Virus record (IMG/VR): IMGVR_UViG_3300034789_000697
Span: 1-27,953 of that record
DNA from: a virus
Length of the DNA: 27,953 nt
Direction: 5' to 3' (one strand)
The notes beneath the pieces were generated by a model, which saw nothing but the letters and a program-made list of their open reading frames with translations, did no database searches and was not told where the DNA came from. Position 1 is the first letter of the stretch. Every line of letters begins with the position of its first letter. Shown here one piece after another: positions 88 through 15,017 of the stretch. The position numbers and the translations under genes are program-made.

Positions 88-150
88 CTCAGTTGGTAGA
101 GCGCCTGCTTTGCAAGCAGGATGTCAGCGGTTCGAGTCCGCTTAACTCCA
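78..150 (+). tRNA. tRNA-Ala (UGC)
   Basis: A 73-base cloverleaf. Acceptor GGGGTTA pairs with TAACTCC (one G-T pair). The anticodon loop is TTTGCAA on a perfect CCTGC/GCAGG stem, and the T-arm contains GGTTCGAGTCC. The discriminator is A and no CCA is encoded, so a host CCA-adding enzyme would be needed. The U34 anticodon suits the A/T-ending codons of this phage. A late promoter motif overlaps its 3' end. Confidence 0.96.
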
Positions 151-156
151 TAAATA
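149..156 (+). promoter_or_regulatory. T4-type late promoter (CATAAATA)
   Basis: CATAAATA matches the T4 late consensus TATAAATA in seven of eight positions. It starts at the last bases of tRNA-Ala and lies ten bases before the ATG at 166. It probably drives the 166 and 378 genes. The placement resembles that at the 3' end of tRNA-Val near 24542. Confidence 0.6.
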
Positions 157-165
157 TTCAAAAAG

Positions 166-381
166 ATGAATCCCTACATTAAAGAACTCATAGAAGATTT
201 CAATGGGACAAACTATGAGCAGTTTGTGAAATACATTTATATGACTCTTCAAAGGGAAATTGATTCCTGTAGGGGCAAGGAAAAGAATAAATATATAAAG
301 ATAAAAAACGACATGCTCAGATACGTTACCTCAAACCGAGGTAGTGTTTCTCTTGCTCTTAGTAGAAATAGATATCAATGA
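166..381 (+). CDS. Small hypothetical protein (71 aa)
   Basis: A 71-residue soluble, charged protein with a mostly helical look (NPYIKELIEDF, then alternating K/E). No domain was recognised. It follows a late promoter by ten bases and its stop overlaps the start of the next gene as ATGA (378-381), so the two are probably translated together. With no strong ribosome site at 378, this frame may mainly serve to deliver ribosomes to the nucleotidyltransferase gene. Confidence 0.7.
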   Translation: MNPYIKELIEDFNGTNYEQFVKYIYMTLQREIDSCRGKEKNKYIKIKNDMLRYVTSNRGSVSLALSRNRYQ

Positions 382-1649
382 AATCCTTTTTTCAATTTTT
401 AAACGAATCTGCAACTCAGCAGGCACAACGTCTTGGTCTTGAAGGAGATGGTCATGGTGGTTGGTATGACCGTCAGACGGGTGAGTTTGTGGCAAAGACT
501 GAAAAGGGAAGATTAAAGTTTTATAATAAGCGTCAGAAAGTTGGTGGGGATGACCCTAACCAAACTGAATTAGAAAAAAATATATCTGATCCAAACTTCA
601 ATGACCCTGGTTTGCAGCAAGATGTTCCTCCTGAACAGCAGGCAGCACCAGTGCCAGAGGAACAACCACAAGTTGAAATTAGTCCTGATTTGGAAGCAGG
701 ACCACCACCAGTTCCCAAAACTAAAGGAACTTTGACTGTTGCATTTGGTAGATTTAACCCACCTCACGCAGGACATTTGCAGTTGATGGATACTGCAGCT
801 GCAGTTGCTGCTGAAGAAGATAGTGATTATTTAATTGTTCCTTCACGTTCAAATGATCCTAAAAAGAATCCTTTGGATGCTGATACTAAGGTTGCATTTA
901 TGAGAGGTATGTTCCCTCTTCATAGTTCTAGAATTCAGAACGATGTAAATACAAGAACTATCTTTGATGTGCTGAAAAAAGCACATAATGATGGATATAC
1001 TAATGTAAGAATTGTTGGTGGTGCTGATAGAGTAAAGGAGTTTGATAAACTTGCCAATAATTATAATGGTGCTCTCTATCAGTTTGATAATCTTGAGGTG
1101 TTATCTGCTGGTGATAGAGATCCTGATGCTGATGGAGTTGAAGGGATGTCTGCATCTAGATTGAGACTTGCTGCATCAGAAAATGATTTCAGAACTTTTA
1201 AATCTGCAATGCCTGAGGGTATGAGACCAAAAGATGCAAGAGAATTGTTCAATACTGTCCGTGCATCAATGGGTATTAATGAAGAGTGGGGTATCTGGGA
1301 AATGGCACCTAAGTTTGACCAACAAACTCTTCGTGAAAATTATGTCTCTAAGACTATCTTTAAAATTGGTCAGTTAGTTGAAAATATGAATACTGGTCTT
1401 ATTGGTCGTATCATCCGTAGAGGTGCTAATCATCTTATTTGTGTTACTGAAGATAAGATTATGTTTAAGGCATGGATTAAAGATGTTAATGAATCAGTTG
1501 TCAATGGTACGAAAAGGGGTGGTGTACCTGCAAATCAAAGAGAAGTTGGTACAGACTCTCACTTTAGATATGTGCAGTCTATGGTTCCAGGATGCACTAT
1601 GTCTAGCGGAAAGGACTTTATAAATAAATATAAGATAAGGAAATCGTAA
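378..1649 (+). CDS. Nucleotidyltransferase (NMN adenylyltransferase/cytidylyltransferase-like) with capsid-targeting-like N-terminus
   Basis: A 423-residue protein. Residues 1-10 (MKSFFQFLNE) resemble the T4 capsid-targeting sequence, with LNE/S as a candidate prohead-protease site. Residues 24-55 form a glycine/aromatic segment, and 60-115 are a Pro/Gln/Glu linker. Residues about 117-275 are a nucleotidyltransferase domain: FGRFNPPHAGH carries the HxGH nucleotide-binding motif (HAGH 130-133), and MSASRLR (257-263) matches the second ISxxRxR-type motif. The family joins a nucleotide to a phosphate-bearing substrate such as NMN, giving NAD. Residues 325-372 look like a small beta-barrel with a conserved IIRRGANHLI core. 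The substrate cannot be told from sequence; NAD salvage is the favoured guess. The gene is late-expressed and coupled to the 166 gene by ATGA. Confidence 0.85.
   Translation: MKSFFQFLNESATQQAQRLGLEGDGHGGWYDRQTGEFVAKTEKGRLKFYNKRQKVGGDDPNQTELEKNISDPNFNDPGLQQDVPPEQQAAPVPEEQPQVEISPDLEAGPPPVPKTKGTLTVAFGRFNPPHAGHLQLMDTAAAVAAEEDSDYLIVPSRSNDPKKNPLDADTKVAFMRGMFPLHSSRIQNDVNTRTIFDVLKKAHNDGYTNVRIVGGADRVKEFDKLANNYNGALYQFDNLEVLSAGDRDPDADGVEGMSASRLRLAASENDFRTFKSAMPEGMRPKDARELFNTVRASMGINEEWGIWEMAPKFDQQTLRENYVSKTIFKIGQLVENMNTGLIGRIIRRGANHLICVTEDKIMFKAWIKDVNESVVNGTKRGGVPANQREVGTDSHFRYVQSMVPGCTMSSGKDFINKYKIRKS
1619..1626 (+). promoter_or_regulatory. T4-type late promoter (TATAAATA) inside the end of the upstream gene
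   Basis: A perfect TATAAATA lies in the last codons of the nucleotidyltransferase gene, 38 bases before the ATG at 1665. In T4 this octamer is sufficient with gp55 and the sliding clamp. The spacing would give a leader of about 30 bases for the 1665 gene. It could be chance within the AT-rich codons for Phe-Ile-Asn-Lys. Confidence 0.5.
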
Positions 1650-1664
1650 TCGTAAAATCTTCCG

Positions 1665-2930
1665 ATGACTAAAAAGATATTTGAAGAACTTCCAGCACGT
1701 AAGCACTCCCCTGCTGCAGCACCTGTTGCTGCAAAAGGTAGTGATAGAAAAGAAAGTGGTGAGGGAGGTTCTGAGAAGAGAATCCGTCAAGCAGTGTATG
1801 ATATCCGATATCGTGCTAGAAGAGAGGGTATTGACTTGAGAGCAGCATACTCTCAGTATATGCAAAATAGTAATTTGAGTGCTCCCGAGCAAGCAGCAGT
1901 TAGAGCAAAACTGTTTGGCAAAGATGGTGGTGGTGATAAGAAAGAATCTTATACTCCATTAATGACTGACGGTGCAACTACATCAGTCGCTAATGCATTA
2001 TTCAAGGTTTTCGTTGAAGATCAACAAGAACAAGAATTTGTCTATGAAGATGAAGGTAGTGATAGAAAGTATAAGGTAAGAGTTACTGATGAGAAGACTA
2101 GTCGTTCGTATGTAAGATACGCTGACCGTGCAAAGATCAATGCTTTAAGAGCAAAAGGTCTTAAAGTTGAAATGACTGAGCACGGTGAACCTGTAGGTGA
2201 GCGTGGTAAGAAAGGAAAGATGGATCCTGTTGCTAAGAATCCAGCACAGAGAGATGGTGATGTAAACAACGATGGTAAGAAAGATGGTACTGATAAGTAC
2301 ATCTATAACCGTCGTGATGCAATCAATGCAGCAATTGCTAAGAAAAAAGCAATGAAAGAAGAGTTGATTGTTGATGGAACCACTTCAACTGAAGGTCAAA
2401 ACAAAGGCAAGATTACTGGCACTGGTGTAGATAACTATTCTACTGGTGTTGTTAAAGTAATGCCTGAAAATGGTGCTGATATTGATAAAATGAATAAAGT
2501 ACGTAAAGGAATTTACGCACATACTGAAGTTGAAATGTCTATTTCTCAGCGTCGTTTGATGGAAATGATTGCGGAGAAGAAAAAGGCAGATGCTTGTGCT
2601 CACAGTGGTGAAGGTAAAGACTGTGAAGTACATGGTATGAAAGCATGTCCTGATTCTGTTTCTGAAGGAATGGGTGGGGACTGTGGTCCTGAAGAAAAGA
2701 AAAAAGAAGATACTAGAGCAGATAAAACTTACCGTGAAGTTCTTAAGAACAAATTGAGATCAATGGGTAAAAAAGTTCTTGCTGCTACTGGTGATGATGC
2801 AGAAGATTCATACGAAAAGATGGCGACTGCTTCTTTCGTTAAGATGGATAAAATGACTGGTAAGATGGAACCTGTAAGTCTTTATAAGGAAGGTTACAGT
2901 AAAAAAAAGAAAAAAAGTAAAGGAAAGTGA
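1665..2930 (+). CDS. Probable virion-associated protein with Ca-binding-like loop (421 aa)
   Basis: A highly charged, Lys/Glu-rich protein with no enzymatic motif. At residues 199-210 the order D-x-N-x-D-G-x-x-D-x-x-D fits an EF-hand or dockerin-type calcium loop. Residues 310-345 hold five cysteines and two histidines that could bind a metal. The tail is almost pure lysine (KKKKKSKGK), suggesting contact with DNA. The N-terminus MTKKIFEELPAR has an FEEL stretch but does not align well with its CTS-bearing neighbours. Proteins of this character are typical of cyanomyovirus late regions; a structural or internal role is inferred from context and composition. Confidence 0.75.
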   Translation: MTKKIFEELPARKHSPAAAPVAAKGSDRKESGEGGSEKRIRQAVYDIRYRARREGIDLRAAYSQYMQNSNLSAPEQAAVRAKLFGKDGGGDKKESYTPLMTDGATTSVANALFKVFVEDQQEQEFVYEDEGSDRKYKVRVTDEKTSRSYVRYADRAKINALRAKGLKVEMTEHGEPVGERGKKGKMDPVAKNPAQRDGDVNNDGKKDGTDKYIYNRRDAINAAIAKKKAMKEELIVDGTTSTEGQNKGKITGTGVDNYSTGVVKVMPENGADIDKMNKVRKGIYAHTEVEMSISQRRLMEMIAEKKKADACAHSGEGKDCEVHGMKACPDSVSEGMGGDCGPEEKKKEDTRADKTYREVLKNKLRSMGKKVLAATGDDAEDSYEKMATASFVKMDKMTGKMEPVSLYKEGYSKKKKKSKGK

Positions 2931-2935
2931 GGGAT

Positions 2936-3451
2936 ATGAAAACATTTCAACAGTTTGCCGAACAGGCATATTCATCAAAGCAGATTGATGAAGGTCTTCT
3001 TAAACAGCTTGGTGTCAAAGCATTAGAATATGGTACAAGAAATGCACCAAAGGTTATTAGAGCGGTTAAAGGTCTATTCTCAAAAGGTAAACCGAAGCCA
3101 ATTCCTGCCGGTGATATTGGTGCTATGAGACTTCGCCAAGGTCAAGCAACAGATGCTGTGAATAGACTCAATAAGAGTACTGCAGCATCAAAGGCAAATG
3201 ATGCTACTCGCGCTGCAACGAGGGAAAGAACTAGATTGAATAATCTAGATCCTCGTGCTGTTAGTGACGCTAATAAGCGTAGAGAAGCTGCTCAAGTTAT
3301 GCAGAGAAATGTGGAAAAAGGTAGACCATCTTTTGCAGGACCACAACCAGTTGATAGATTAGACTACAGACCTGGTGATCCTATGTTTACAGATGCTCTG
3401 AAGAGATATTATGCTGCTAAGAGGGCAGGAGTAAAGGGACTTCCAAAATAA
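2936..3451 (+). CDS. Small basic late protein with capsid-targeting-like N-terminus (171 aa)
   Basis: I start it at ATG 2936, after GTGAGGG, rather than three codons upstream, because MKTFQQFAEQA then aligns with its paralogs. Residues 1-20 carry the pattern MKTFxxF followed by an IDE/G site, as recognised by T4-type prohead protease. The rest is basic and rich in Arg, Lys and Ala (GLFSKGKPKPIPAG, RAATRERTRLNNL), likely helical and DNA-compatible. No known domain. It follows the 1665 gene by five bases and should be co-transcribed with it. Inferred internal capsid protein. Confidence 0.75.
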   Translation: MKTFQQFAEQAYSSKQIDEGLLKQLGVKALEYGTRNAPKVIRAVKGLFSKGKPKPIPAGDIGAMRLRQGQATDAVNRLNKSTAASKANDATRAATRERTRLNNLDPRAVSDANKRREAAQVMQRNVEKGRPSFAGPQPVDRLDYRPGDPMFTDALKRYYAAKRAGVKGLPK

Positions 3452-4058: not shown

Positions 4059-4430
4059 ATGAGATTTGATGAATTGAACGAGAGTAACTATCTACTCTTT
4101 GCTATAAAATTTTATAACAACCCACAATCAGTTACTAGGGATGATTTTGAGTCTGACCTAAAACGGATTCGTTATATTAAAAGACTGTTGAAGAGATATA
4201 AAAATACAGGTGAACTTAAGATTCACCTGATATTGAATCACCTTATTATATTGTTTAACGTCTTTGATGAAGCGGCAGTGCCGTTGTTGTTTTATCACTT
4301 GGAGGAGGAACTCTGGCCATCAATAAAGAGTTTCCTTGTCTTTCTGAAAAGAATACCAGAGTATCCAAAAAGTGATATTACAGGAATTCCTTTAGATTAT
4401 GACTGTCTAAAGCAATTAGAAGAACTTTAA
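4059..4430 (+). CDS. Conserved-looking hypothetical phage protein (123 aa)
   Basis: A helical, charged 123-residue protein (MRFDELNESNYLLFAIKFYN at the start) with Lys/Arg clusters (RIRYIKRLLKRYK). A similar short protein is, as I recall, common just upstream of the primase region in T4-like cyanophages, but no function is known. Its TAA stop overlaps the next ATG (TAATG at 4428-4432), indicating coupled translation. Confidence 0.75.
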   Translation: MRFDELNESNYLLFAIKFYNNPQSVTRDDFESDLKRIRYIKRLLKRYKNTGELKIHLILNHLIILFNVFDEAAVPLLFYHLEEELWPSIKSFLVFLKRIPEYPKSDITGIPLDYDCLKQLEEL

Positions 4431-5999: not shown

Positions 6000-8293
6000 G
6001 TAACGGGACAAAAGTAGTCAAGAGAAATGGAAATACTGAACCTCTTGATTTAAATAAACTTCACGTTATGGTGGAGCAAGCATGTAAAGACCTTGCAGGA
6101 GTTTCAGCATCACAGGTTGAAATGCAATCTGGTATTCAGTTTTATGATGGTATCACTACAGCAGAAATTCAAGAAATTCTAATTCGTTCTGCATCAGATT
6201 TGATTGACCTTGACCATCCTAACTATCAGTTCGTAGCAGCGCGTTTGCTGCTGTTTGCGCTCCGTAAGCAACTGTTTGGTCGTATGCATGAGAATCCCTC
6301 TGTTAAGGAGCATATAGAGGCATGTGTAGAGAGGGGAGTTTATGATCCAGAAATCCTGAATCTATACACTGAGGAAGAGTTTACTAAACTCCAGTCATTC
6401 ATTGACCATAGTAGAGATTATTTGTTTACATATGCTGGTCTTCGTCAGGTTGTAGATAAATATCTTGTCCAGGATAGAAGCAGTGGTTCTGTTTATGAGA
6501 CACCTCAGTTCATGTATCTGTTGATTGCTGCTACCATCTTTTCAAAGTATCCCAAAGAAACACGTCTCGATTACGTAAAGAAGTACTATGACGCAATCTC
6601 CAGGCACAAAATCAACATTCCCACACCTATCATGGCGGGAGTGCGAACTCCACTTCGACAATATGCTAGCTGTGTTCTTGTTGATGTTGATGACTCCCTC
6701 GATAGCATCTTTACTTCTGATATGGCTATTGGCAGATACGTTGCACAAAGGGCGGGAATCGGCATCAACGCAGGTCGCATCCGTGGCATCAACGCTAAAA
6801 TCAGAGGCGGAGAAGTACAACACACAGGCGTCGTCCCATTTCTCAAAAAGTTTGAGGCAACTGTCCGATGCTGCACTCAAAACGGCATCAGAGGTGGAAG
6901 CGCGACAGTCCATTTTCCCATTTGGCATCAAGAAATAGAAGACATTATTGTCCTAAAGAATAATAAAGGTACAGAAGACAATCGCGTAAGGAAACTTGAC
7001 TATTCGATTCAAATCTCAAAACTTTTCTACGAAAGATTTATTCGGAACGAAGAAATCTCCCTCTTCAGCCCTCACGATGTTCCAGGTCTGTATGATGCTT
7101 TTGGTACTGATGCGTTTGATGACCTCTATGTGGGTTATGAATCTGATGGATCAATTCCTCGTAAAACGCTTAAAGCGCAAGACCTGTTCCTAGACCTCTT
7201 GAAAGAAAGGGCAGAAACTGGTAGACTGTATATCATGAACATTGATCACTGCAACTCTCACTCTTCTTTTATGGATAAAGTTGAGATGAGCAATCTATGT
7301 CAAGAGATTACTCTCCCCACCAAACCACTCAAGCATATTGACGATGAAAACGGAGAAATTGCTCTCTGCATACTTAGTGCTATCAATATCGGAAAAATTA
7401 GGGATCTTGAGGATCTTGAAATTCTTTGCGATCTTGCTGTTCGCAGTCTTGATGAACTTATTGATTTCCAAAACTATCCCATCAGAGCAGCAGAAATTGC
7501 CACAAAAGCACGCCGTTCACTTGGAATCGGTTACATCGGTTTAGCACATTATCTTGCTAAGAATGGTGTAAACTACAGTGATACCGAGGCATGGAAACTT
7601 GTTCATGACTTAACCGAGGCATTCCAATACTATCTCATTCAGTCCACTGTGAATCTTGCAGAAGAGAAGGGTGCCTGTGAGTATAGCAGCCGAACAAAAT
7701 ACGGTAACGGAATTCTGCCAATCGATACATATAAACATGACGTAGATGAAATAGTTCCGAATGAGCTTCACTATGATTGGGAGAATCTTCGATCGCGGGT
7801 TATTGCCCACGGAGTTAGGAACTCAACATTGTCCGCTCAGATGCCATCGGAAAGCAGTTCCGTTGTGTCAAACGCAACAAATGGAATCGAACCACCTAGA
7901 GGATATTTGTCCATTAAGAAGAGCAAAAAAGGACCACTCAAACAGATTGTTCCTCAGTATGCATCTCTTAAGAACAATTATACGCTCCTCTGGGATATGG
8001 AGTCTAATCGTGGTTACATCAATATTGTTGCTGTTATGCAGAAGTTCTTTGACCAAGCAATCAGCGGCAACTGGAGTTATAACCCAACCCAGTATCCAGA
8101 AAATGAAGTCCCCGTCTCCGTAATGGCGCAGGATCTTCTAACCACCTACAAATATGGTTGGAAGACTTCATACTATCAAAACACATACGACTTCAAGACT
8201 GATGAGGTTGAAGAAACCAAAGAAAGTCTTGACAATCTAATCGCTCAACTAGAACAAGCAGAGGAGGAAGAGTGTGAGTCTTGTAAGATTTAA
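5996..8293 (+). CDS. nrdA: Class Ia ribonucleotide reductase, large subunit
   Basis: A 765-residue NrdA, which reduces ribonucleoside diphosphates to the deoxy form with NrdB. I use ATG 5996 rather than TTG 5984 because the ATGA overlap and family alignment favour it. Residues 5-90 are the ATP-cone regulatory domain. Active-site residues are present: C226 and C458 (redox pair), and N433-L-C435-Q-E437 carrying the thiyl cysteine and its partners. The C-terminal shuttle pair is C760-x2-C763, ending in KI. No intein or intron is visible. Marine picocyanobacterial hosts use a B12-dependent class II enzyme, so this is not a recent copy of the host gene. Confidence 0.97.
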   Translation: MSNGTKVVKRNGNTEPLDLNKLHVMVEQACKDLAGVSASQVEMQSGIQFYDGITTAEIQEILIRSASDLIDLDHPNYQFVAARLLLFALRKQLFGRMHENPSVKEHIEACVERGVYDPEILNLYTEEEFTKLQSFIDHSRDYLFTYAGLRQVVDKYLVQDRSSGSVYETPQFMYLLIAATIFSKYPKETRLDYVKKYYDAISRHKINIPTPIMAGVRTPLRQYASCVLVDVDDSLDSIFTSDMAIGRYVAQRAGIGINAGRIRGINAKIRGGEVQHTGVVPFLKKFEATVRCCTQNGIRGGSATVHFPIWHQEIEDIIVLKNNKGTEDNRVRKLDYSIQISKLFYERFIRNEEISLFSPHDVPGLYDAFGTDAFDDLYVGYESDGSIPRKTLKAQDLFLDLLKERAETGRLYIMNIDHCNSHSSFMDKVEMSNLCQEITLPTKPLKHIDDENGEIALCILSAINIGKIRDLEDLEILCDLAVRSLDELIDFQNYPIRAAEIATKARRSLGIGYIGLAHYLAKNGVNYSDTEAWKLVHDLTEAFQYYLIQSTVNLAEEKGACEYSSRTKYGNGILPIDTYKHDVDEIVPNELHYDWENLRSRVIAHGVRNSTLSAQMPSESSSVVSNATNGIEPPRGYLSIKKSKKGPLKQIVPQYASLKNNYTLLWDMESNRGYINIVAVMQKFFDQAISGNWSYNPTQYPENEVPVSVMAQDLLTTYKYGWKTSYYQNTYDFKTDEVEETKESLDNLIAQLEQAEEEECESCKI

Positions 8294-8327
8294 GACGAAC
8301 AAAGAGGAGAGACCAGTGGTTAACTCC

Positions 8328-9458
8328 ATGACAGTATTCAACTCAGAAGAAGTTGATACCAAAAAACAACCAATGTTTTTTGGTAAACCATTAGGAATTC
8401 AAAGATATGATTCTTACAAGTATCCAATCTTTGACAAACTCACAACACAACAACTAGGATATTTTTGGAGACCTGAGGAGGTCTCCCTACAGAAGGATCG
8501 CAGTGACTATCAGACATTACGCCCAGAGCAAAAGCACATTTTTACCAGCAATCTTAAGTACCAGATCATGTTGGATAGTGTACAAGGGCGCGGTCCTGGG
8601 ATGGCTTTTATCCCTTACTGCTCACTACCTGAGTTAGAGGCGTGCATGGAAGTCTGGGGATTCATGGAAATGATTCACAGTCGTTCATATACTCATATCA
8701 TCAAGAACATTTATCCAGACCCTTCAGATGTGTTTGACCACATTCTGAATGATGATCGTATCGTAGAACGTGCCATGAGCGTGACTCAGGCATATAATGA
8801 TTTTATTAATGCTGCACATTTTTATGATAATTCTACTCAGTGGCAGCAAGCACTAGAACAAGTTCCCTACGCACTCGACGAAAGGTATGAACTCAAGCGC
8901 AAACTCTTCAGAGCAGTTGCAAACGTTAATATTCTTGAAGGTATTCGCTTTTACGTATCATTTGCTTGCAGTTTTGCATTTGGCGAACTCAAACTTATGG
9001 AAGGAAGTGCAAAAATCATCTCTCTGATTGCTCGTGATGAGAATCAGCATCTTGCTATTACTCAGAATATTCTGAAAAAGTGGCGTGAAGGTGATGACCC
9101 TGATATGAAGAAAATCTTCAAGGAAGAGGAGCAATGGTTGATTAACACATTTGAAAACTGTGTTAATCAGGAAAAACTTTGGGCAGAATATCTGTTCAAG
9201 GATGGTTCAATGATTGGTTTAAATGACAAACTGTTACAACAGTATGTTGAATGGATTGCCAATCGTAGAATGAAAGCAATCGGACTTAAACCAACTTATG
9301 ATATACCTGCAAAGAATAATCCACTTCCTTGGACAGAGCACTGGATCTCTTCTAAAGGTCTTCAAGTGGCACCACAAGAAACAGAAGTTGAATCCTACAT
9401 CGTTGGAGGAATCAAGCAAGATGTTAAAGCAGACACTTTCTCAGGATTCAGTCTCTGA
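8328..9458 (+). CDS. nrdB: Class Ia ribonucleotide reductase, small subunit
   Basis: A 376-residue NrdB providing the diiron-tyrosyl radical. All ligands are visible at D83, E114, H117, E204, E238 and H241, with the radical tyrosine at Y121 in IHSRSYTHI. I chose ATG 8328 because MTVFNSEEVDTKKQPMFFG aligns end to end with T4 NrdB. In-frame GTG codons at 8274 (inside nrdA) and 8316 have better ribosome sites and could give N-terminally extended forms. It lies 34 bases after nrdA in the same operon. Confidence 0.96.
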   Translation: MTVFNSEEVDTKKQPMFFGKPLGIQRYDSYKYPIFDKLTTQQLGYFWRPEEVSLQKDRSDYQTLRPEQKHIFTSNLKYQIMLDSVQGRGPGMAFIPYCSLPELEACMEVWGFMEMIHSRSYTHIIKNIYPDPSDVFDHILNDDRIVERAMSVTQAYNDFINAAHFYDNSTQWQQALEQVPYALDERYELKRKLFRAVANVNILEGIRFYVSFACSFAFGELKLMEGSAKIISLIARDENQHLAITQNILKKWREGDDPDMKKIFKEEEQWLINTFENCVNQEKLWAEYLFKDGSMIGLNDKLLQQYVEWIANRRMKAIGLKPTYDIPAKNNPLPWTEHWISSKGLQVAPQETEVESYIVGGIKQDVKADTFSGFSL

Positions 9459-9558
9459 TTCATATGCAGCATACAGAGAGGCGGCGAAATCAGACGCCTT
9501 TCTGTTTGGTGATTATGATGGATATCAAGCATTTGAAGATTTGGATAAGGAGGGGTAA
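9421..9558 (+). CDS. Small acidic protein overlapping the end of nrdB (45 aa)
   Basis: ATG 9421 lies in the +1 frame inside the last 38 bases of nrdB, preceded by GGAGG about twelve bases upstream. It encodes 45 residues ending in a strongly acidic aromatic tail (FLFGDYDGYQAFEDLDKEG). The frame is open much further upstream, but that part is antiparallel to nothing and only shadows nrdB, so the short form is preferred. Its stop lies within the terminator hairpin. Function unknown. Confidence 0.55.
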   Translation: MLKQTLSQDSVSDSYAAYREAAKSDAFLFGDYDGYQAFEDLDKEG

Positions 9559-9573
9559 TTCCCTCCTTTTTTT
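9547..9573 (+). terminator. Rho-independent terminator after nrdB, fused to a late promoter
   Basis: AAGGAGGG (9547-9554) pairs with CCCTCCTT (9561-9568) around GTAATT, followed by T residues to 9573. The final T is also the first base of TATAAATA, the same composite arrangement as at 3689-3719. Confidence 0.9.
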
Positions 9574-9580
9574 ATAAATA
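9573..9580 (+). promoter_or_regulatory. T4-type late promoter (TATAAATA)
   Basis: A perfect octamer immediately after the terminator that closes the primase-nrd unit, 19 bases before ATG 9600. It marks the switch from replication genes to late genes. Confidence 0.85.
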
Positions 9581-9599
9581 CTAAAAAAGTCCGACTAAG

Positions 9600-10397
9600 A
9601 TGAAGACCTATACTCAATTTATTGAAGAATCCCATTCTGCTAGGGAAAATATTCAAGAAGCAATACCTCTGGCACTGATAGGTGCTGCAAAGTTAGCGAG
9701 TATGGGACTGAGTGCATATTCTGCTTATAGTGCAGCACAAAACTTAAAGAAAGGAAAGTATGGTGATGCTGCATTAGACGCTCTGGGAGTGGTTCCTGGA
9801 GGCGTTGCGTTTAAGGGTGCAAGAGCACTCGGTGCTAGTAGAAACCTTGCAAGAGGTGCTTCTGCAACTCAGAGTGTTGCAAGAAACTTTTCTCCAAACG
9901 CCAGAAATCGTGCCATTGAAGGTGGAATCGATATGGCAACTAAGGCAGCACTTGGAACTGGTACTGCATCTGCTTCACAAACAGAACCATCAAAGACTCA
10001 ACCAGCATCATCAACTCAACCATCTCAACCATCTCAACCATCTCAACCAGCACCTAGACCCAAACCTTCAAGTGTTGTTCTGGCACGTAAAGGTGGTGTA
10101 ATGGGTAAGTTGGATAAAGCAACTGGAAAGTGGACTAAGGGTGATTGGACTAAACAGGAATCTGATAGATATAAGAGAGTTGCTGCTCAGAAAGCAGCAC
10201 CTAAACCAGCACCTGTTGTTAAATCTAACAACATAAATCTTCCTTCTGCAGTAACAGCAAAATCCGCTGTAAAAAAATCGGTACCAGTAGGTGATACTGT
10301 AAAGACAAAAGTGAATCCAGATAGTAGTCTTCAAGTAACTCAAAGAAGAAGTAAGGAGGCTACTGAGAAGATTAAGAAGTCTCTTGATATCAATTGA
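9600..10397 (+). CDS. Late protein with capsid-targeting-like N-terminus and glycine-rich hydrophobic region (265 aa)
   Basis: MKTYTQFIEE/S is close to the T4 capsid-targeting sequence recalled as MKTYQEFIAE. A second protease-like site (IQE/A) is at residues 18-20. Residues 21-95 are hydrophobic and Gly/Ala-rich. The stretch DAALDALGVVPGGVAFKGA resembles the linker found before toxin domains in some polymorphic toxins. Residues 120-160 are a Ser-Gln-Pro repeat linker, and the C-terminal half is basic. The early part shares its layout with the next gene (AYSAAQNLKKGKYG versus AYDAGQNVMKGEKG). Inferred to be packaged in the capsid and membrane-active; no enzymatic domain is seen. Confidence 0.75.
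   Translation: MKTYTQFIEESHSARENIQEAIPLALIGAAKLASMGLSAYSAYSAAQNLKKGKYGDAALDALGVVPGGVAFKGARALGASRNLARGASATQSVARNFSPNARNRAIEGGIDMATKAALGTGTASASQTEPSKTQPASSTQPSQPSQPSQPAPRPKPSSVVLARKGGVMGKLDKATGKWTKGDWTKQESDRYKRVAAQKAAPKPAPVVKSNNINLPSAVTAKSAVKKSVPVGDTVKTKVNPDSSLQVTQRRSKEATEKIKKSLDIN
10016..10049 (+). repeat. 9-bp tandem repeat (TCAACCATC), about 3.8 copies
   Basis: An in-frame tandem repeat encoding Ser-Gln-Pro units within the linker of the 9600 protein. Copy number is likely to vary between isolates by slippage. Confidence 0.9.
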
Positions 10398-10431: not shown

Positions 10432-10821
10432 ATGAAATCGTATAAGGACTTTGTTGGAGAGTCTTACTCCGCTAGAGAAAACTTAGATGAGGGACTCGGT
10501 TCTCTTGCCGCCAAACTTATTCGTGGTACTGGAAAATTAGCATGGAAGGGTGCAAAGGCCACTCTTGGAAGTGATCGTGGAAGAAGAATTGTTGGTGGCA
10601 TTGGTGCTTATGATGCGGGTCAGAATGTTATGAAGGGTGAGAAAGGAGAAAGAAATAAAGGACATATGGGTTCTGTAGCGACTGGTGCTGCTGCAGCATT
10701 GATGCCTAGAAGAGGTTTATTCCCTTATGCTGGTGCTGCTGCTTTAGGTCTTCATCTTGGCGATTATGTTTACAGACAAATGCGTCTGAGAGATAAAGAA
10801 AAGCAACTGAAGGGAAATTGA
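10432..10821 (+). CDS. Late protein with capsid-targeting-like N-terminus and glycine-rich helices (129 aa)
   Basis: MKSYKDFVGE/S followed by ARENLDE/G gives two possible prohead-protease sites; residues 9-20 nearly match those of the 9600 protein (ESYSARENLDEG versus ESHSARENIQEA). The mature part has basic helices, then Gly/Ala-rich hydrophobic segments (IVGGIGAYDAG; GAAAALMPRRGLFPYAGAAALGL) and a charged C-terminus. It looks like a truncated sister of the 9600 gene. Probably an internal virion protein able to insert into membranes; this is inferred. Confidence 0.75.
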   Translation: MKSYKDFVGESYSARENLDEGLGSLAAKLIRGTGKLAWKGAKATLGSDRGRRIVGGIGAYDAGQNVMKGEKGERNKGHMGSVATGAAAALMPRRGLFPYAGAAALGLHLGDYVYRQMRLRDKEKQLKGN

Positions 10822-10822
10822 A

Positions 10823-12682
10823 ATGTCTACATTTAAAAGAATTCTATCAGAAAAAACACGTGGAGACTACGGTAGAAAGGGTGGTCAAGGTGGTGTTAAA
10901 GGAACTCGTACCACTCCTTTTGATAAAAGAGAAGCAAAAGCAAAAATAGATAATCCTCAGAAATATCAAACTCCAGCACGAGGTTCTAGGCAGGTAATTC
11001 CATCACCTCAACAAGGTATTGGTTTTGAAACTAATGCTCCTAGTGGAACTGTTCTTGGAGATAAAACACCAGAACAAGCATTTCGTGAAGTAGATACAAA
11101 ACAGAAGAGAAGAGGAACTCAACCATCTTCTTTAAGGACACAACGTCAAGTAAGAGGATTTGGTAAACCAGATCCTGAAGTACAAAAAAAAGTTGCTGAT
11201 GACCTTAGGGGTCGTAAAGGAGCGGATCCTACAGCTAGAAGAGCAGCATCCAATATTCTTAGTGGTGGTAAAGCTCCTGATGCTGCCGATGAATTAATTG
11301 GTGGAGAAACAGCTAAAGAAAAAACAGGTCAAAGATATCGTCAAAGAAGACCAGCAGATGTAAGAGCATCTGGTGTTAAAAGTAGTGCTTATGCAGATTG
11401 GCAAAAACAAGCAGTTCGTACAAGGCAGCAATTAAAAGCATCTGGAACAAAATTCTTTGGTAAACCAACAGGTGTTGATGCACAAGGAAAACCAACTTAT
11501 GTTCCACCAAAGGAAACACCAAAAGGTGAGACTGGAAGAAGAGCACAAAGACAAGCATCTCCACGTTCATATGCATCTGTAAAAGCAGATCTTGAAGCAA
11601 AGACAAAAATAAAAGAATTAAAGGTTAAACCTAAAGCATCCACTAAACCGCCAGTATTAAAACCATCAACTAAAGTATCAGCACCACAACCAACAAGAGG
11701 ATTTTCTACTTTTACTCAAGATGTGATGAGGGGTAAATATACACCTCAACCTCAACAACAACCCAACTTCCGAGCACCAACACCAACTAAACCAACAGTT
11801 TCAAAAGCAAAAGTTACTGGCGGAACTACTAGAGTAACTGATTTATCTCCTACTAAGAGACCTACAGGAACAAAAACTTTTGCACAGTTTGCAACTAGTG
11901 GAAGAACTGCGGCACAAAAACAAGCAACTTTAAAGGCATTAAGAACTTCACCTAAACCTGCTGTACAACCTAAAGTTACTGCCCCACCTAAACCTCAAGC
12001 ACTTACTAAAGCAGCAGTTGCACCTAAAGTAAAAGTACCTAAGATAACTGCTGGTGGAGTTGCTGGTGGTGCTCTCAGTGCTTTAGGTGCTGGATTCGAC
12101 GTTGTACAAGGTCGTGAGGACGCTAAAAAGGCGGGTGCTAGTGACACTAGAGCGTGGTTGAGAGGTGCTGCAAGGGCAGCTGGAGGTCTTGTAGGAGGTG
12201 CTGTAGGTGCTAGTGGCGGTCTTGTCGGTGGCGTTGCTGGTTATTCTGTAGGTTCTGCATTGGCAGATAAGACCTTTACAGCACTTGCTGGTGCTACAGA
12301 CGCACAAAAGAAATGGATGAAACAAGCAAATCTTGCTTCTCAAAGAGGCACTGCTGTAGATAAAGTCAAATATAGAAAAGGCAATCAAGCAGTCATCTAT
12401 GATCCTAGAGTCAAGAAAGAGAGGATTGGAACTTTTGATCCAACGAGTGGAACATTCAAAGCTGGTAATTTGGCAAAATCTAAAGCATATACTGCGAAAA
12501 ATCCATTTGAAAGACTTGGAAGACAATTCTCAAGATCAAATGAAGGTTCTGGACTGTTTGGTTTAAATATTGTAAAAGGTCATGGTCTCGCTGATATGGC
12601 GAAAAAATATTATGCTGATAGAGATGAGAAAGCGCGTATTAAGAGAGTTTCGGACTTCAAGAAATCTGCCTCCGCTAAATAA
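10823..12682 (+). CDS. Large basic repetitive virion-associated protein with glycine zipper (619 aa)
   Basis: It starts one base after the previous stop with a ribosome site (AAGGGAAA). The N-terminus MSTFKRILSE/K is a looser version of the neighbours' targeting pattern with an LSE site. Residues 10-410 are low-complexity, very rich in Lys, Arg, Pro, Gln and Thr, and probably disordered and DNA-binding. Residues about 415-490 are a glycine zipper (GGVAGGALSALGAGFD and AAGGLVGGAVGASGGLVGGVAGYSVG) able to insert in a membrane. The C-terminus has a basic globular segment. The design (disordered basic body plus membrane-inserting helices) suits an ejected protein or tail component. Confidence 0.75.
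   Translation: MSTFKRILSEKTRGDYGRKGGQGGVKGTRTTPFDKREAKAKIDNPQKYQTPARGSRQVIPSPQQGIGFETNAPSGTVLGDKTPEQAFREVDTKQKRRGTQPSSLRTQRQVRGFGKPDPEVQKKVADDLRGRKGADPTARRAASNILSGGKAPDAADELIGGETAKEKTGQRYRQRRPADVRASGVKSSAYADWQKQAVRTRQQLKASGTKFFGKPTGVDAQGKPTYVPPKETPKGETGRRAQRQASPRSYASVKADLEAKTKIKELKVKPKASTKPPVLKPSTKVSAPQPTRGFSTFTQDVMRGKYTPQPQQQPNFRAPTPTKPTVSKAKVTGGTTRVTDLSPTKRPTGTKTFAQFATSGRTAAQKQATLKALRTSPKPAVQPKVTAPPKPQALTKAAVAPKVKVPKITAGGVAGGALSALGAGFDVVQGREDAKKAGASDTRAWLRGAARAAGGLVGGAVGASGGLVGGVAGYSVGSALADKTFTALAGATDAQKKWMKQANLASQRGTAVDKVKYRKGNQAVIYDPRVKKERIGTFDPTSGTFKAGNLAKSKAYTAKNPFERLGRQFSRSNEGSGLFGLNIVKGHGLADMAKKYYADRDEKARIKRVSDFKKSASAK
12675..12681 (+). promoter_or_regulatory. Possible late promoter variant (CTAAATA)
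   Basis: CTAAATA lies at the stop of the 10823 gene, 25 bases before ATG 12707. This variant recurs upstream of other genes here (16277, and on the minus strand at 20997), which supports it as a phage late motif, but it also contains the necessary stop codon and may be chance. Confidence 0.4.
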
Positions 12683-13730: not shown

Positions 13731-13757
13731 AAAAAATTATCTAGTAATTGATTTTTT
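13731..13757. terminator. Weak bidirectional terminator between convergent genes
   Basis: A5-6, then AATTA (13735-13739), loop TCTAG, TAATT (13745-13749) and a T6 run. The flanking A and T tracts make it usable in both directions. The five-pair A/T stem is weak. It sits between the plus-strand 12707 gene and the minus-strand 13737 gene. Confidence 0.45.
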
Positions 13758-14081
13758 AACCAAAACAGTTCCTTCCACAACTCTCTCTTTAATTCCTTGT
13801 GGATCTTGAAGTACAACGTCATAAAAATATTTCCCTGCTTTTAACTGTGAAGTATCAGTTGATCCCATTGATACTGTTAATCTTCCATTACTTCTATCTT
13901 GTGTAAAACTTACTGTAAAATCTTTTGTCTTACTAGAAGTTTCATATCTTCTAAGTTGTGCACAAGCATTATAATCTGAAAGATTTTTAAGTGAATTTGA
14001 AATAGAATCCTCCAATATAAAGGTAACAATAAAATCTGTTCCTGTATGAAGAACTAAGTCGTTTACAAATACTTCTGCCAT
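13737..14081 (-). CDS. Beta-rich accessory structural protein, copy A (114 aa)
   Basis: A 114-residue protein with alternating hydrophobic and polar residues typical of beta strands. It contains GRLTVSMGSTDTSQLKAG, then KYFYDVVL, and ends in VVEGTVLVKKSITR. This order (strand, t-x-x-L-x-x-G-x-Y-x-Y-D, then EG-x-V-x-V) recalls the N-terminal domain of baseplate upper proteins or an immunoglobulin-like fold. It aligns along its whole length with the next minus-strand gene, so the two arose by duplication. It has its own late promoter. A tail or capsid decoration role is inferred. Confidence 0.75.
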   Translation of the reverse strand: MAEVFVNDLVLHTGTDFIVTFILEDSISNSLKNLSDYNACAQLRRYETSSKTKDFTVSFTQDRSNGRLTVSMGSTDTSQLKAGKYFYDVVLQDPQGIKERVVEGTVLVKKSITR

Positions 14082-14102: not shown

Positions 14103-14110
14103 TATTTATT
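14103..14110 (-). promoter_or_regulatory. Minus-strand late promoter (AATAAATA)
   Basis: On the minus strand AATAAATA lies 21 bases before the start of the 13737 gene and overlaps the stop of the upstream paralog. It provides a separate late start for copy A. Confidence 0.6.
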
Positions 14111-14453
14111 ACGGGCAACCCGTTGTTACACCAGATCTAACTAAAACTTGACCTTCTACTGCGATTAATTTTTCATTATTTGTTTTTGTAATCATTACAT
14201 CATAAAGATATCTTCCAGGTTTTATGCTTGAGGTAATAGTGTCATCCATTGACAATGTTATTTTACCTTCTGTAGAACTTGTAATGCCGACAGTAAAGTT
14301 ATAAGCAGTAGAACTATCTGGATGCTTTCTAACTTGAGATTCTAATGTGAATCCAGTTATATCGGTTGGAGTTCCATTAATCTGAAGAAGTTCAAGATTT
14401 TCGGAAAAATCAACGTGAGTATTAACGGTCAGATTTTTTACATATACTGACAT
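14109..14453 (-). CDS. Beta-rich accessory structural protein, copy B (114 aa)
   Basis: A paralog of the 13737 gene with the same length and the same motifs (GKITLSMDDTITSSIKPG, RYLYDVMI, VEGQVLVRSGVT). Sequence divergence is large, so the duplication is old. It is on the minus strand within a plus-strand region, and a perfect-core late promoter (GATAAATA) precedes it. Residues 30-45 (GTPTDITGFTLESQVRK) look like the D-[IL]-T-G-[FY]-T segment of baseplate upper protein domains. Function is inferred only. Confidence 0.75.
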   Translation of the reverse strand: MSVYVKNLTVNTHVDFSENLELLQINGTPTDITGFTLESQVRKHPDSSTAYNFTVGITSSTEGKITLSMDDTITSSIKPGRYLYDVMITKTNNEKLIAVEGQVLVRSGVTTGCP

Positions 14454-14567: not shown

Positions 14568-15017
14568 ATGAGTTATGAAAACCCATGGGTTTTTAAAGGT
14601 AAAACTTTTTTATCTGAAAATATTAATGACTTCTATGGTTTTGTCTATAGGATTACTAATTTACAATCAGGTAAAAAGTATATCGGTAGAAAATACTTCT
14701 GGTCCTTCAGAAAACCGCCAGGAAAAAAGCGAAAGGTAAAGCAAGAATCAGATTGGCAGAAGTATTATGGTTCTTGTCCTGAATTAAAGGAGGATATAAA
14801 AAAGTATGGCAAAGAGATCTTCAGTAGAGAAATACTGAGTCTTCACGGAACAAAGGGAACTTGTAACTTTGAAGAAACAAAACAATTGTTTCTCAATAAT
14901 GTGTTGTCGGAAGCACTTGACGACGGATCACCAGCATACTATAATAGCAACATTCTAGGACGCTATATGCGAAAAGACTATGGTAACTTTAGAGTCAACT
15001 CTGAGGAAAATTCATGA
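14568..15017 (+). CDS. GIY-YIG family endonuclease
   Basis: A 149-residue protein whose residues 22-45 give the GIY-YIG core: G24-F-V-Y27, then KKYIGRKYFW with Y38-I-G40 and the following catalytic arginine R41. A KRK-rich basic stretch (50-60) may contact DNA. Enzymes of this fold cut DNA; in T4-like phages many are homing endonucleases, while others act in host DNA breakdown or repair. No intron is seen beside it, so a free-standing or housekeeping role is more likely. It has both early and late promoters and overlaps the next gene by 38 bases. Confidence 0.85.
   Translation: MSYENPWVFKGKTFLSENINDFYGFVYRITNLQSGKKYIGRKYFWSFRKPPGKKRKVKQESDWQKYYGSCPELKEDIKKYGKEIFSREILSLHGTKGTCNFEETKQLFLNNVLSEALDDGSPAYYNSNILGRYMRKDYGNFRVNSEENS

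Follow-up and report, generated by a model that had tools for sequence, protein, structure and literature searches.

What is a nucleotidyltransferase with a capsid-targeting-like N-terminus doing in a cyanophage genome: is it loaded into the head and sent into the cell with the DNA, and which reaction would it carry out there? The question comes from a stretch of 27,953 bases (positions 1 to 27,953 of the IMG/VR virus record IMGVR_UViG_3300034789_000697; here called the window), a fragment of a P-SSM2-like cyanomyovirus that is partly colinear with Prochlorococcus phage P-SSM2 (gp61, nrdA, nrdB). Which proteins cyanophages inject with their DNA is largely unknown. We consider it rather probable that the enzyme is a late-made adenylyltransferase, loaded into the head through a capsid-targeting sequence (CTS) and injected as cargo together with the DNA. 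The presence of orthologues in virions was already known and a role in NAD metabolism had been proposed before; new here are the CTS as a loading signal, its link with proteomics, a second N-terminal module that is shared with other proteins, and the association with DUF6267.

The enzyme gene and its surroundings

The open reading frame is real and runs exactly from 378 to 1649, from an ATG, encoding 423 amino acids; the HAGH and MSASRLR motifs that a sequence-only reading had pointed out are both present. The gene belongs to the cyanophage core cluster T4-GC190 and shares 69.7% identity over 100% of its length with its P-SSM2 orthologue PSSM2_194, and 48.8% with the S-SCSM1 orthologue. The product matches PF01467 (CTP_transf_like) at 1.2e-7, above the curated cut-off, and PHROG 395 ('cytidyltransferase') at 3e-100. 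Its place between gp41/mazG and gp61/nrdA is that of the cyanomyovirus orthologues. Indeed, the T4-GC190 'cytitidyltransferases' of cyanomyoviruses (PSSM2_194, SSM1_190 and S-SCSM1 ORF91, the latter called 'NMNAT') have the same CTS, module, enzyme domain and neighbourhood; we see no difference of kind, and the window enzyme is another member of this group. Just upstream lie a tRNA-Ala gene (78-150), with a counterpart upstream of the S-SCSM1 enzyme gene, and a small ORF for which a PHROG search gave no match; a 67-aa ORF, PSSM2_193, occupies the same place in P-SSM2. Viral-contig searches with the S-CREM2 homologue and with the Pseudomonas homologue returned one locus each.

149-156, plus strand: CATAAATA, a motif resembling a T4-type late promoter, 17 nt upstream of the small ORF and 229 nt upstream of the enzyme gene
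166-381, plus strand: small ORF of 71 aa, overlapping the enzyme's ATG by 4 nt
378-1649, plus strand: the whole enzyme gene, a HIGH-superfamily nucleotidyltransferase and T4-GC190 orthologue

The proposal that the gene is transcribed late receives moderate support from the positions of the motifs CATAAATA and TATAAATA before genes. Exact copies of TATAAATA precede two other CTS genes, those at 9600 and 10432, by 27 nt each and the gene after the enzyme, at 1665, by 46 nt, and most of the late-promoter-like motifs in the window are found just before genes. The more general NATAAATA motif occurs 10 times on the plus strand of the window versus 4.2 expected (maximum of 10 in 200 simulations); in such an AT-rich window this count alone is not clearly above chance, and it is the position before genes that counts. 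On the minus strand, two tandem, similar-looking ORFs of 114 aa each (13737-14081 and 14109-14453) both have NATAAATA about 30 nt upstream.

Probable capsid targeting and detection of orthologues in virions

The internal proteins IPI-III and Alt of phage T4 are packaged in the head, processed by gp21 and injected. The window enzyme carries the same ten-residue N-terminal address, with agreement at the functional positions F/Y4, F7, I/L8 and E10: its start, MKSFFQFLNE followed by S, fits the T4-type pattern M-K-x-[FY]-x-x-F-[LIVM]-x-E, and the T4 IpII start MKTYQEFIAE is annotated as a removed propeptide (-10 to -1). The cargo differs, being a HIGH nucleotidyltransferase here and an ADP-ribosyltransferase or a small inhibitor in T4, and the window enzyme, unlike the T4 internal proteins, has an extra module of about 35 aa after the CTS. 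In the T4 CTS, residues 4 and 7 serve targeting and residues 8 and 10 processing, and Asp at position 10 stops processing but not targeting (PMC9026906).

378-407, plus strand: CTS, MKSFFQFLNE (aa 1-10), with a predicted prohead-protease cut after E10

The capsid-targeting-like start noted earlier holds up as a real feature. Of the window's 524 candidate starts only 3 fit a strict T4-style pattern, and all three belong to true genes. Among 70 distinct proteins of the window clade, K2, F4 and F7 are conserved in 100% and E10 in 93%, and positions 3, 5, 8, 9 and 11 vary. The pattern lies within the first 14 residues in 153 of 164 relatives, the exceptions including an E10D variant and a form one residue shorter (MKFFYQFQES). 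Orthologues from S-PM2, P-HM2, pelagiphage HTVC008M and a Pseudomonas phage have no CTS, which means that packaging does not extend to the whole family. A prohead protease of the gp21 family (Peptidase_S77, PF03420) is encoded in 10/10 related phage records; the window does not extend far enough to include the gene. We found no paper in the open-access literature that names a CTS in the T4-GC190 enzyme.

Orthologues have been found by mass spectrometry in the virions of four phages, namely S-SM1 in 2010 (PMC3037559), S-SCSM1 (PMC9602691), S-SZBM1 (2 peptides, PMC9146016) and S-CREM2 (3 peptides, PMC10665884), with the caveat that peptides were few and that carry-over is a risk to which the authors draw attention. 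The CTS is present in 4/4 of these orthologues, which start with MKKFSAFLNE (S-SM1), MKSFLQFLKE (S-SCSM1), MRFRQFIIE (S-SZBM1) and MKNFSSFLTE (S-CREM2). The S-PM2 orthologue, without a CTS, was reported as not detected in the S-PM2 virion study. The prediction that the protein is packaged in the capsid is therefore well supported, though for orthologues and by findings already published in those four studies; packaging of the window enzyme is very probable.

The link between CTS and detection could be followed across the S-CREM2 proteome. Of its 219 proteins, 4 fit the pattern ^M.{0,4}[FYL]..F[LIVM].E (0.16 expected from shuffling): gp6 (a SAM lyase), gp13, gp14 (an APH-like kinase) and gp154 (the nucleotidyltransferase). 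Each of these was detected by mass spectrometry, and none of the 167 undetected proteins has a CTS; the corresponding Fisher values of 0.003, or 0.0003 without structural proteins, are descriptive only, since the pattern had been relaxed at position 3 post hoc, after the S-CREM2 N-termini were seen. A first, strict pattern ([KRN][ST] at positions 2-3) had given nothing convincing in this phage, and the relaxation is justified by the T4 mutational data, in which positions 4, 7, 8 and 10 matter. S-CREM2 gp15, with a short variant of the CTS, was detected too. For S-SZBM1, with only 30 detected proteins, the link does not reach significance: one of two matching proteins was detected, or one of three if a Tyr variant is counted. 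The same phage has two adjacent small genes, SSZBM1_191 and 192 (122311-123125 of the record), with the T4-like CTSs MKSFKSFLSE and MKTFKQYITE; both are absent from its proteome list and are predicted internal proteins.

Four more proteins of the window start in a CTS-like manner, all of them basic (net +11 to +76), and are candidates for T4-like internal proteins. The ATG of the one at 2936 lies 9 nt inside a GTG-started ORF (2927-3451).

2936-3451, plus strand: basic protein (net +19) with the short CTS variant MKTFQQFAEQ, candidate internal protein
9600-10397, plus strand: CTS protein MKTYTQFIEE (net +23), candidate internal protein
10432-10821, plus strand: CTS protein MKSYKDFVGE (net +11), candidate internal protein
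10823-12682, plus strand: start MSTFKRILSE, 619 aa (net +76), matching a looser CTS pattern only, candidate internal protein

If the CTS rule holds, the first ten residues would permit a scan of every cyanophage genome for injected proteins, and the recurring, cautiously reported 'NMNAT in virions' would be accounted for by a specific loading mechanism.

A second N-terminal module shared with other proteins

Behind the CTS of the enzyme lies a further small unit, for which we found no description in the open-access literature.

420-533, plus strand: second N-terminal module, spanning aa 15-52 (QAQRLGLEGDGHGGWYDRQTGEFVAKTEKGRLKFYNKR) and predicted to form four beta strands

With a pN/pS of 0.15 (aa 19-51), as against 0.26 in the enzyme domain and 0.43 in the linker, this is the most constrained part of the protein; it is modelled with a pLDDT of about 75-82. 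In S-CREM2 gp14 and in the kinases of S-B68 and S-H34, two copies of the module each stand behind a CTS or a similar start, and proteins related to phrog_3561 have it as well: S-CREM2 gp12 and proteins of 977 aa in S-H34, 583 aa in S-B68 (its N-terminus, rather than a PHROG search, puts it in this group) and 961 aa in ACG-2014f. A profile search of 13 records located it in 9, exclusively in proteins of the nucleotidyltransferase, kinase and phrog_3561 types. In the phages with proteomics (S-CREM2, S-SM1 and S-SCSM1), module proteins were in the virion in 4/4 cases. The virion-type kinases of S-CREM2, S-H34 and S-B68 and the phrog_3561 proteins thus resemble the window enzyme in having a CTS, or a start like it, and the second module, but differ from it in their catalytic domains.

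We regard it as an evenly balanced proposition that the CTS and the module of about 35 aa (GxG-W / VAxTxxGxLxF) make up a two-part N-terminal loading and delivery tag of cyanophages, by which exchangeable enzymes (nucleotidyltransferase, APH or Ser/Thr kinase, phrog_3561 proteins of about 900 aa) would be put in the head and sent into the cyanobacterium with the DNA. Such a tag, if true, would define a general system of injected effectors that can be read from sequence alone. S-CREM2 gp12 (7704-10313 of the sequence examined) is called CRISPR-Cas9 in the record and in the paper; it has no Pfam match, matches phrog_3561 (of unknown function), and starts with a CTS-like stretch and the second module.

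The enzyme domain and its possible acceptors

After the second module the protein continues with a linker of variable length among relatives, the catalytic domain and a small C-terminal domain:

534-722, plus strand: Pro/Gln/Glu-rich linker (aa 53-115), predicted mostly disordered (pLDDT mostly 40-60; pN/pS of 0.43 over aa 52-112)
723-1277, plus strand: HIGH-superfamily nucleotidyltransferase domain (aa 116-300; pLDDT about 77-93)
747-776, plus strand: GRFNPPHAGH (aa 124-133), the nucleotide-binding HxGH motif, in which GR-NPP--GH is invariant
861-875, plus strand: KKNPL (aa 162-166), invariant, with putative phosphate-contacting lysines by family resemblance
1149-1166, plus strand: SASRLR (aa 258-263), the ATP-phosphate motif S-x-S-x-x-R, with S258, S260 and R263 invariant
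1320-1493, plus strand: small C-terminal beta domain (aa 315-372), five predicted strands

HxGH and SxSxxR motifs within a Rossmann-like domain place the protein in the HIGH superfamily. Among 30 diverse relatives there is little or no variation in GRFNPP..GH, SR..D.KKNPL, G.DR (GADR here), YNG, S.G.R and S.S..R, although HxGH has Thr for its first His in at least one aligned relative; an inactive relic is therefore unlikely. In the AlphaFold2 model (mean pLDDT 73.9), much of aa 116-300 reaches about 90 and forms a confident core. Among PDB folds, Foldseek places NadD (2e-6), CoaD (7.6e-6) and human NMNAT (1.6e-5) closest to it. The fold, the family matches and the invariant catalytic residues together make an ATP-using, adenylyltransferase-type enzyme likely. 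A cytidylyltransferase (TagD, GCT), as the gene is annotated, was rejected: none is among the top 50 PDB folds, and there is no TagD profile match. By its appearance in the model the C-terminal domain may be KOW/SH3-like. In S-PM2 a separate 91-aa ORF, S-PM2p144 (PHROG 4808; 4059-4334 of the sequence examined), matches this domain, so that its label 'Ribonucleotide reductase alpha subunit' (NrdB) is wrong.

Likeness to an NMN adenylyltransferase, as originally suggested, stands at the level of fold and superfamily but not for NMN as the substrate. TIGR00482 (NaMN/NMN adenylyltransferase) matches 29 of the 30 relatives, NadR 27 and CoaD (TIGR01510) 12, and the HIGH fold and the HxGH and SxSxxR motifs are those of NadD, NadM and NadR, the nearest profile matches. 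The window enzyme differs from these in its own scores, which are far below the curated cut-offs (25 of 341 bits for TIGR01526, 19 of 112 bits for TIGR00482), in its N- and C-terminal additions, and in having no Nudix or kinase domain. Against PDB sequences phmmer gave no match for the enzyme, and a profile search gave only the NadM-Nudix protein 2qjo, below threshold. NMN or NaMN, with NAD made or restored, is tentatively the likeliest single acceptor.

The association with DUF6267 points elsewhere. All 12 of the complete or long related records encode this domain. Its gene lies immediately upstream of the enzyme gene in about 70 loci of the S-SZBM1 type and next to it in S-SM1 and P-HM2; three proteins of 930-955 aa from genome-collection contigs are fusions of DUF6267 with the HIGH nucleotidyltransferase. 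Its invariants (K50-x-D52-G53, Q-G-D122, E366-G367 and K378--R382) read like the motifs of covalent nucleotidyltransferases of the KxDG, ligase-like type. A proven ligase fold was rejected, as this is a reading of motifs and a Foldseek search of the PDB with the DUF6267 model gave nothing significant (best E 0.23; DNA-ligase adenylation domain at E 1.8).

According to the explanation that we prefer, the enzyme would be made late and its first ten residues, acting as a T4-type CTS, would bring it into the prohead core. A gp21-type prohead protease would cut after E10 and leave the module of about 35 aa, the flexible linker and the intact nucleotidyltransferase domain in the filled head. The enzyme would then enter the cell with the injected DNA and there, as infection begins, use ATP to adenylylate a small phosphorylated acceptor.

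Several alternatives have to be weighed against this. That the protein is an abundant product of the infected cell that merely co-purifies with virions would suit the low peptide numbers and the authors' own caveat, but detection in four phages with a CTS in every case, selection on exactly the CTS positions and the absence of NrdA, NrdB and DNA polymerase from the S-CREM2 list make it highly improbable. An enzyme of the CoaD type (phosphopantetheine), or one specific for another acceptor, seems quite unlikely: CoaD structures rank 4-7 by fold with a target TM-score of up to 0.72 versus about 0.60 for NadD, the KK motif lies in the same region by eye, and some jumbo phage homologues are annotated as such, but the NMN/NaMN families match more members with better E-values, and no other CoA-pathway gene was noted. 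An NMN adenylyltransferase that rebuilds NAD at entry against NAD-depleting defence is unlikely and remains speculation. The likeness in fold and profile agrees with it, delivery at entry would suit it, and phage NAD rebuilding is known from NARP1 (PMC12774641). The context, however, does not support this part of the original proposal: NAMPT (PF04095) is found in 0/9 complete or long relatives of the window, itself a partial genome, whereas NadM phages always carry NadV (PMC9503650), so that these relatives have no phage NAD-salvage pair, and linkage points to DUF6267 instead. In addition, the enzyme lacks a Nudix or kinase partner domain, its gene is core in cyanophages whereas one specific to defence should have a patchy distribution, and the few copies in a virion would hardly restore the NAD of a cell without a supply of NMN. 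A candidate pathway partner, the 'NAD synthetase' PSSM2_218 (T4-GC213; 38569-39006 of the P-SSM2 sequence examined), was rejected: its N-terminus resembles window positions 14568-15017, a SegE GIY-YIG endonuclease (PF19835, 7e-56), and the annotation, which looks wrong, is no evidence for phage NAD metabolism.

Since DUF6267 adjoins or is fused to the enzyme in many relatives and has ligase-like motifs, chemistry at nucleic-acid ends is a live rival. The packaged enzyme and DUF6267 would then serve nucleic-acid or other chemistry rather than NAD supply, with the HIGH domain preparing or modifying an adenylated end or intermediate and the C-terminal beta domain perhaps binding nucleic acid. We judge this somewhat unlikely, with the recurrent linkage, the three fusions and the invariants on one side and, on the other, the lack of a significant Foldseek match, the distance of about 100 kb between the two genes in P-SSM2, the nearest named relative of the window, and the absence of DUF6267 from the S-SZBM1 virion list. 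With NAD supply and a DUF6267 partner alike, the reaction in the first minutes of infection would be of general interest, because the gene belongs to the core set of an abundant marine virus group. In three relatives near the pelagiphage type, a single polypeptide joins a Pol-beta-like nucleotidyltransferase (NTP_transf_2) to the HIGH domain and DUF5824.
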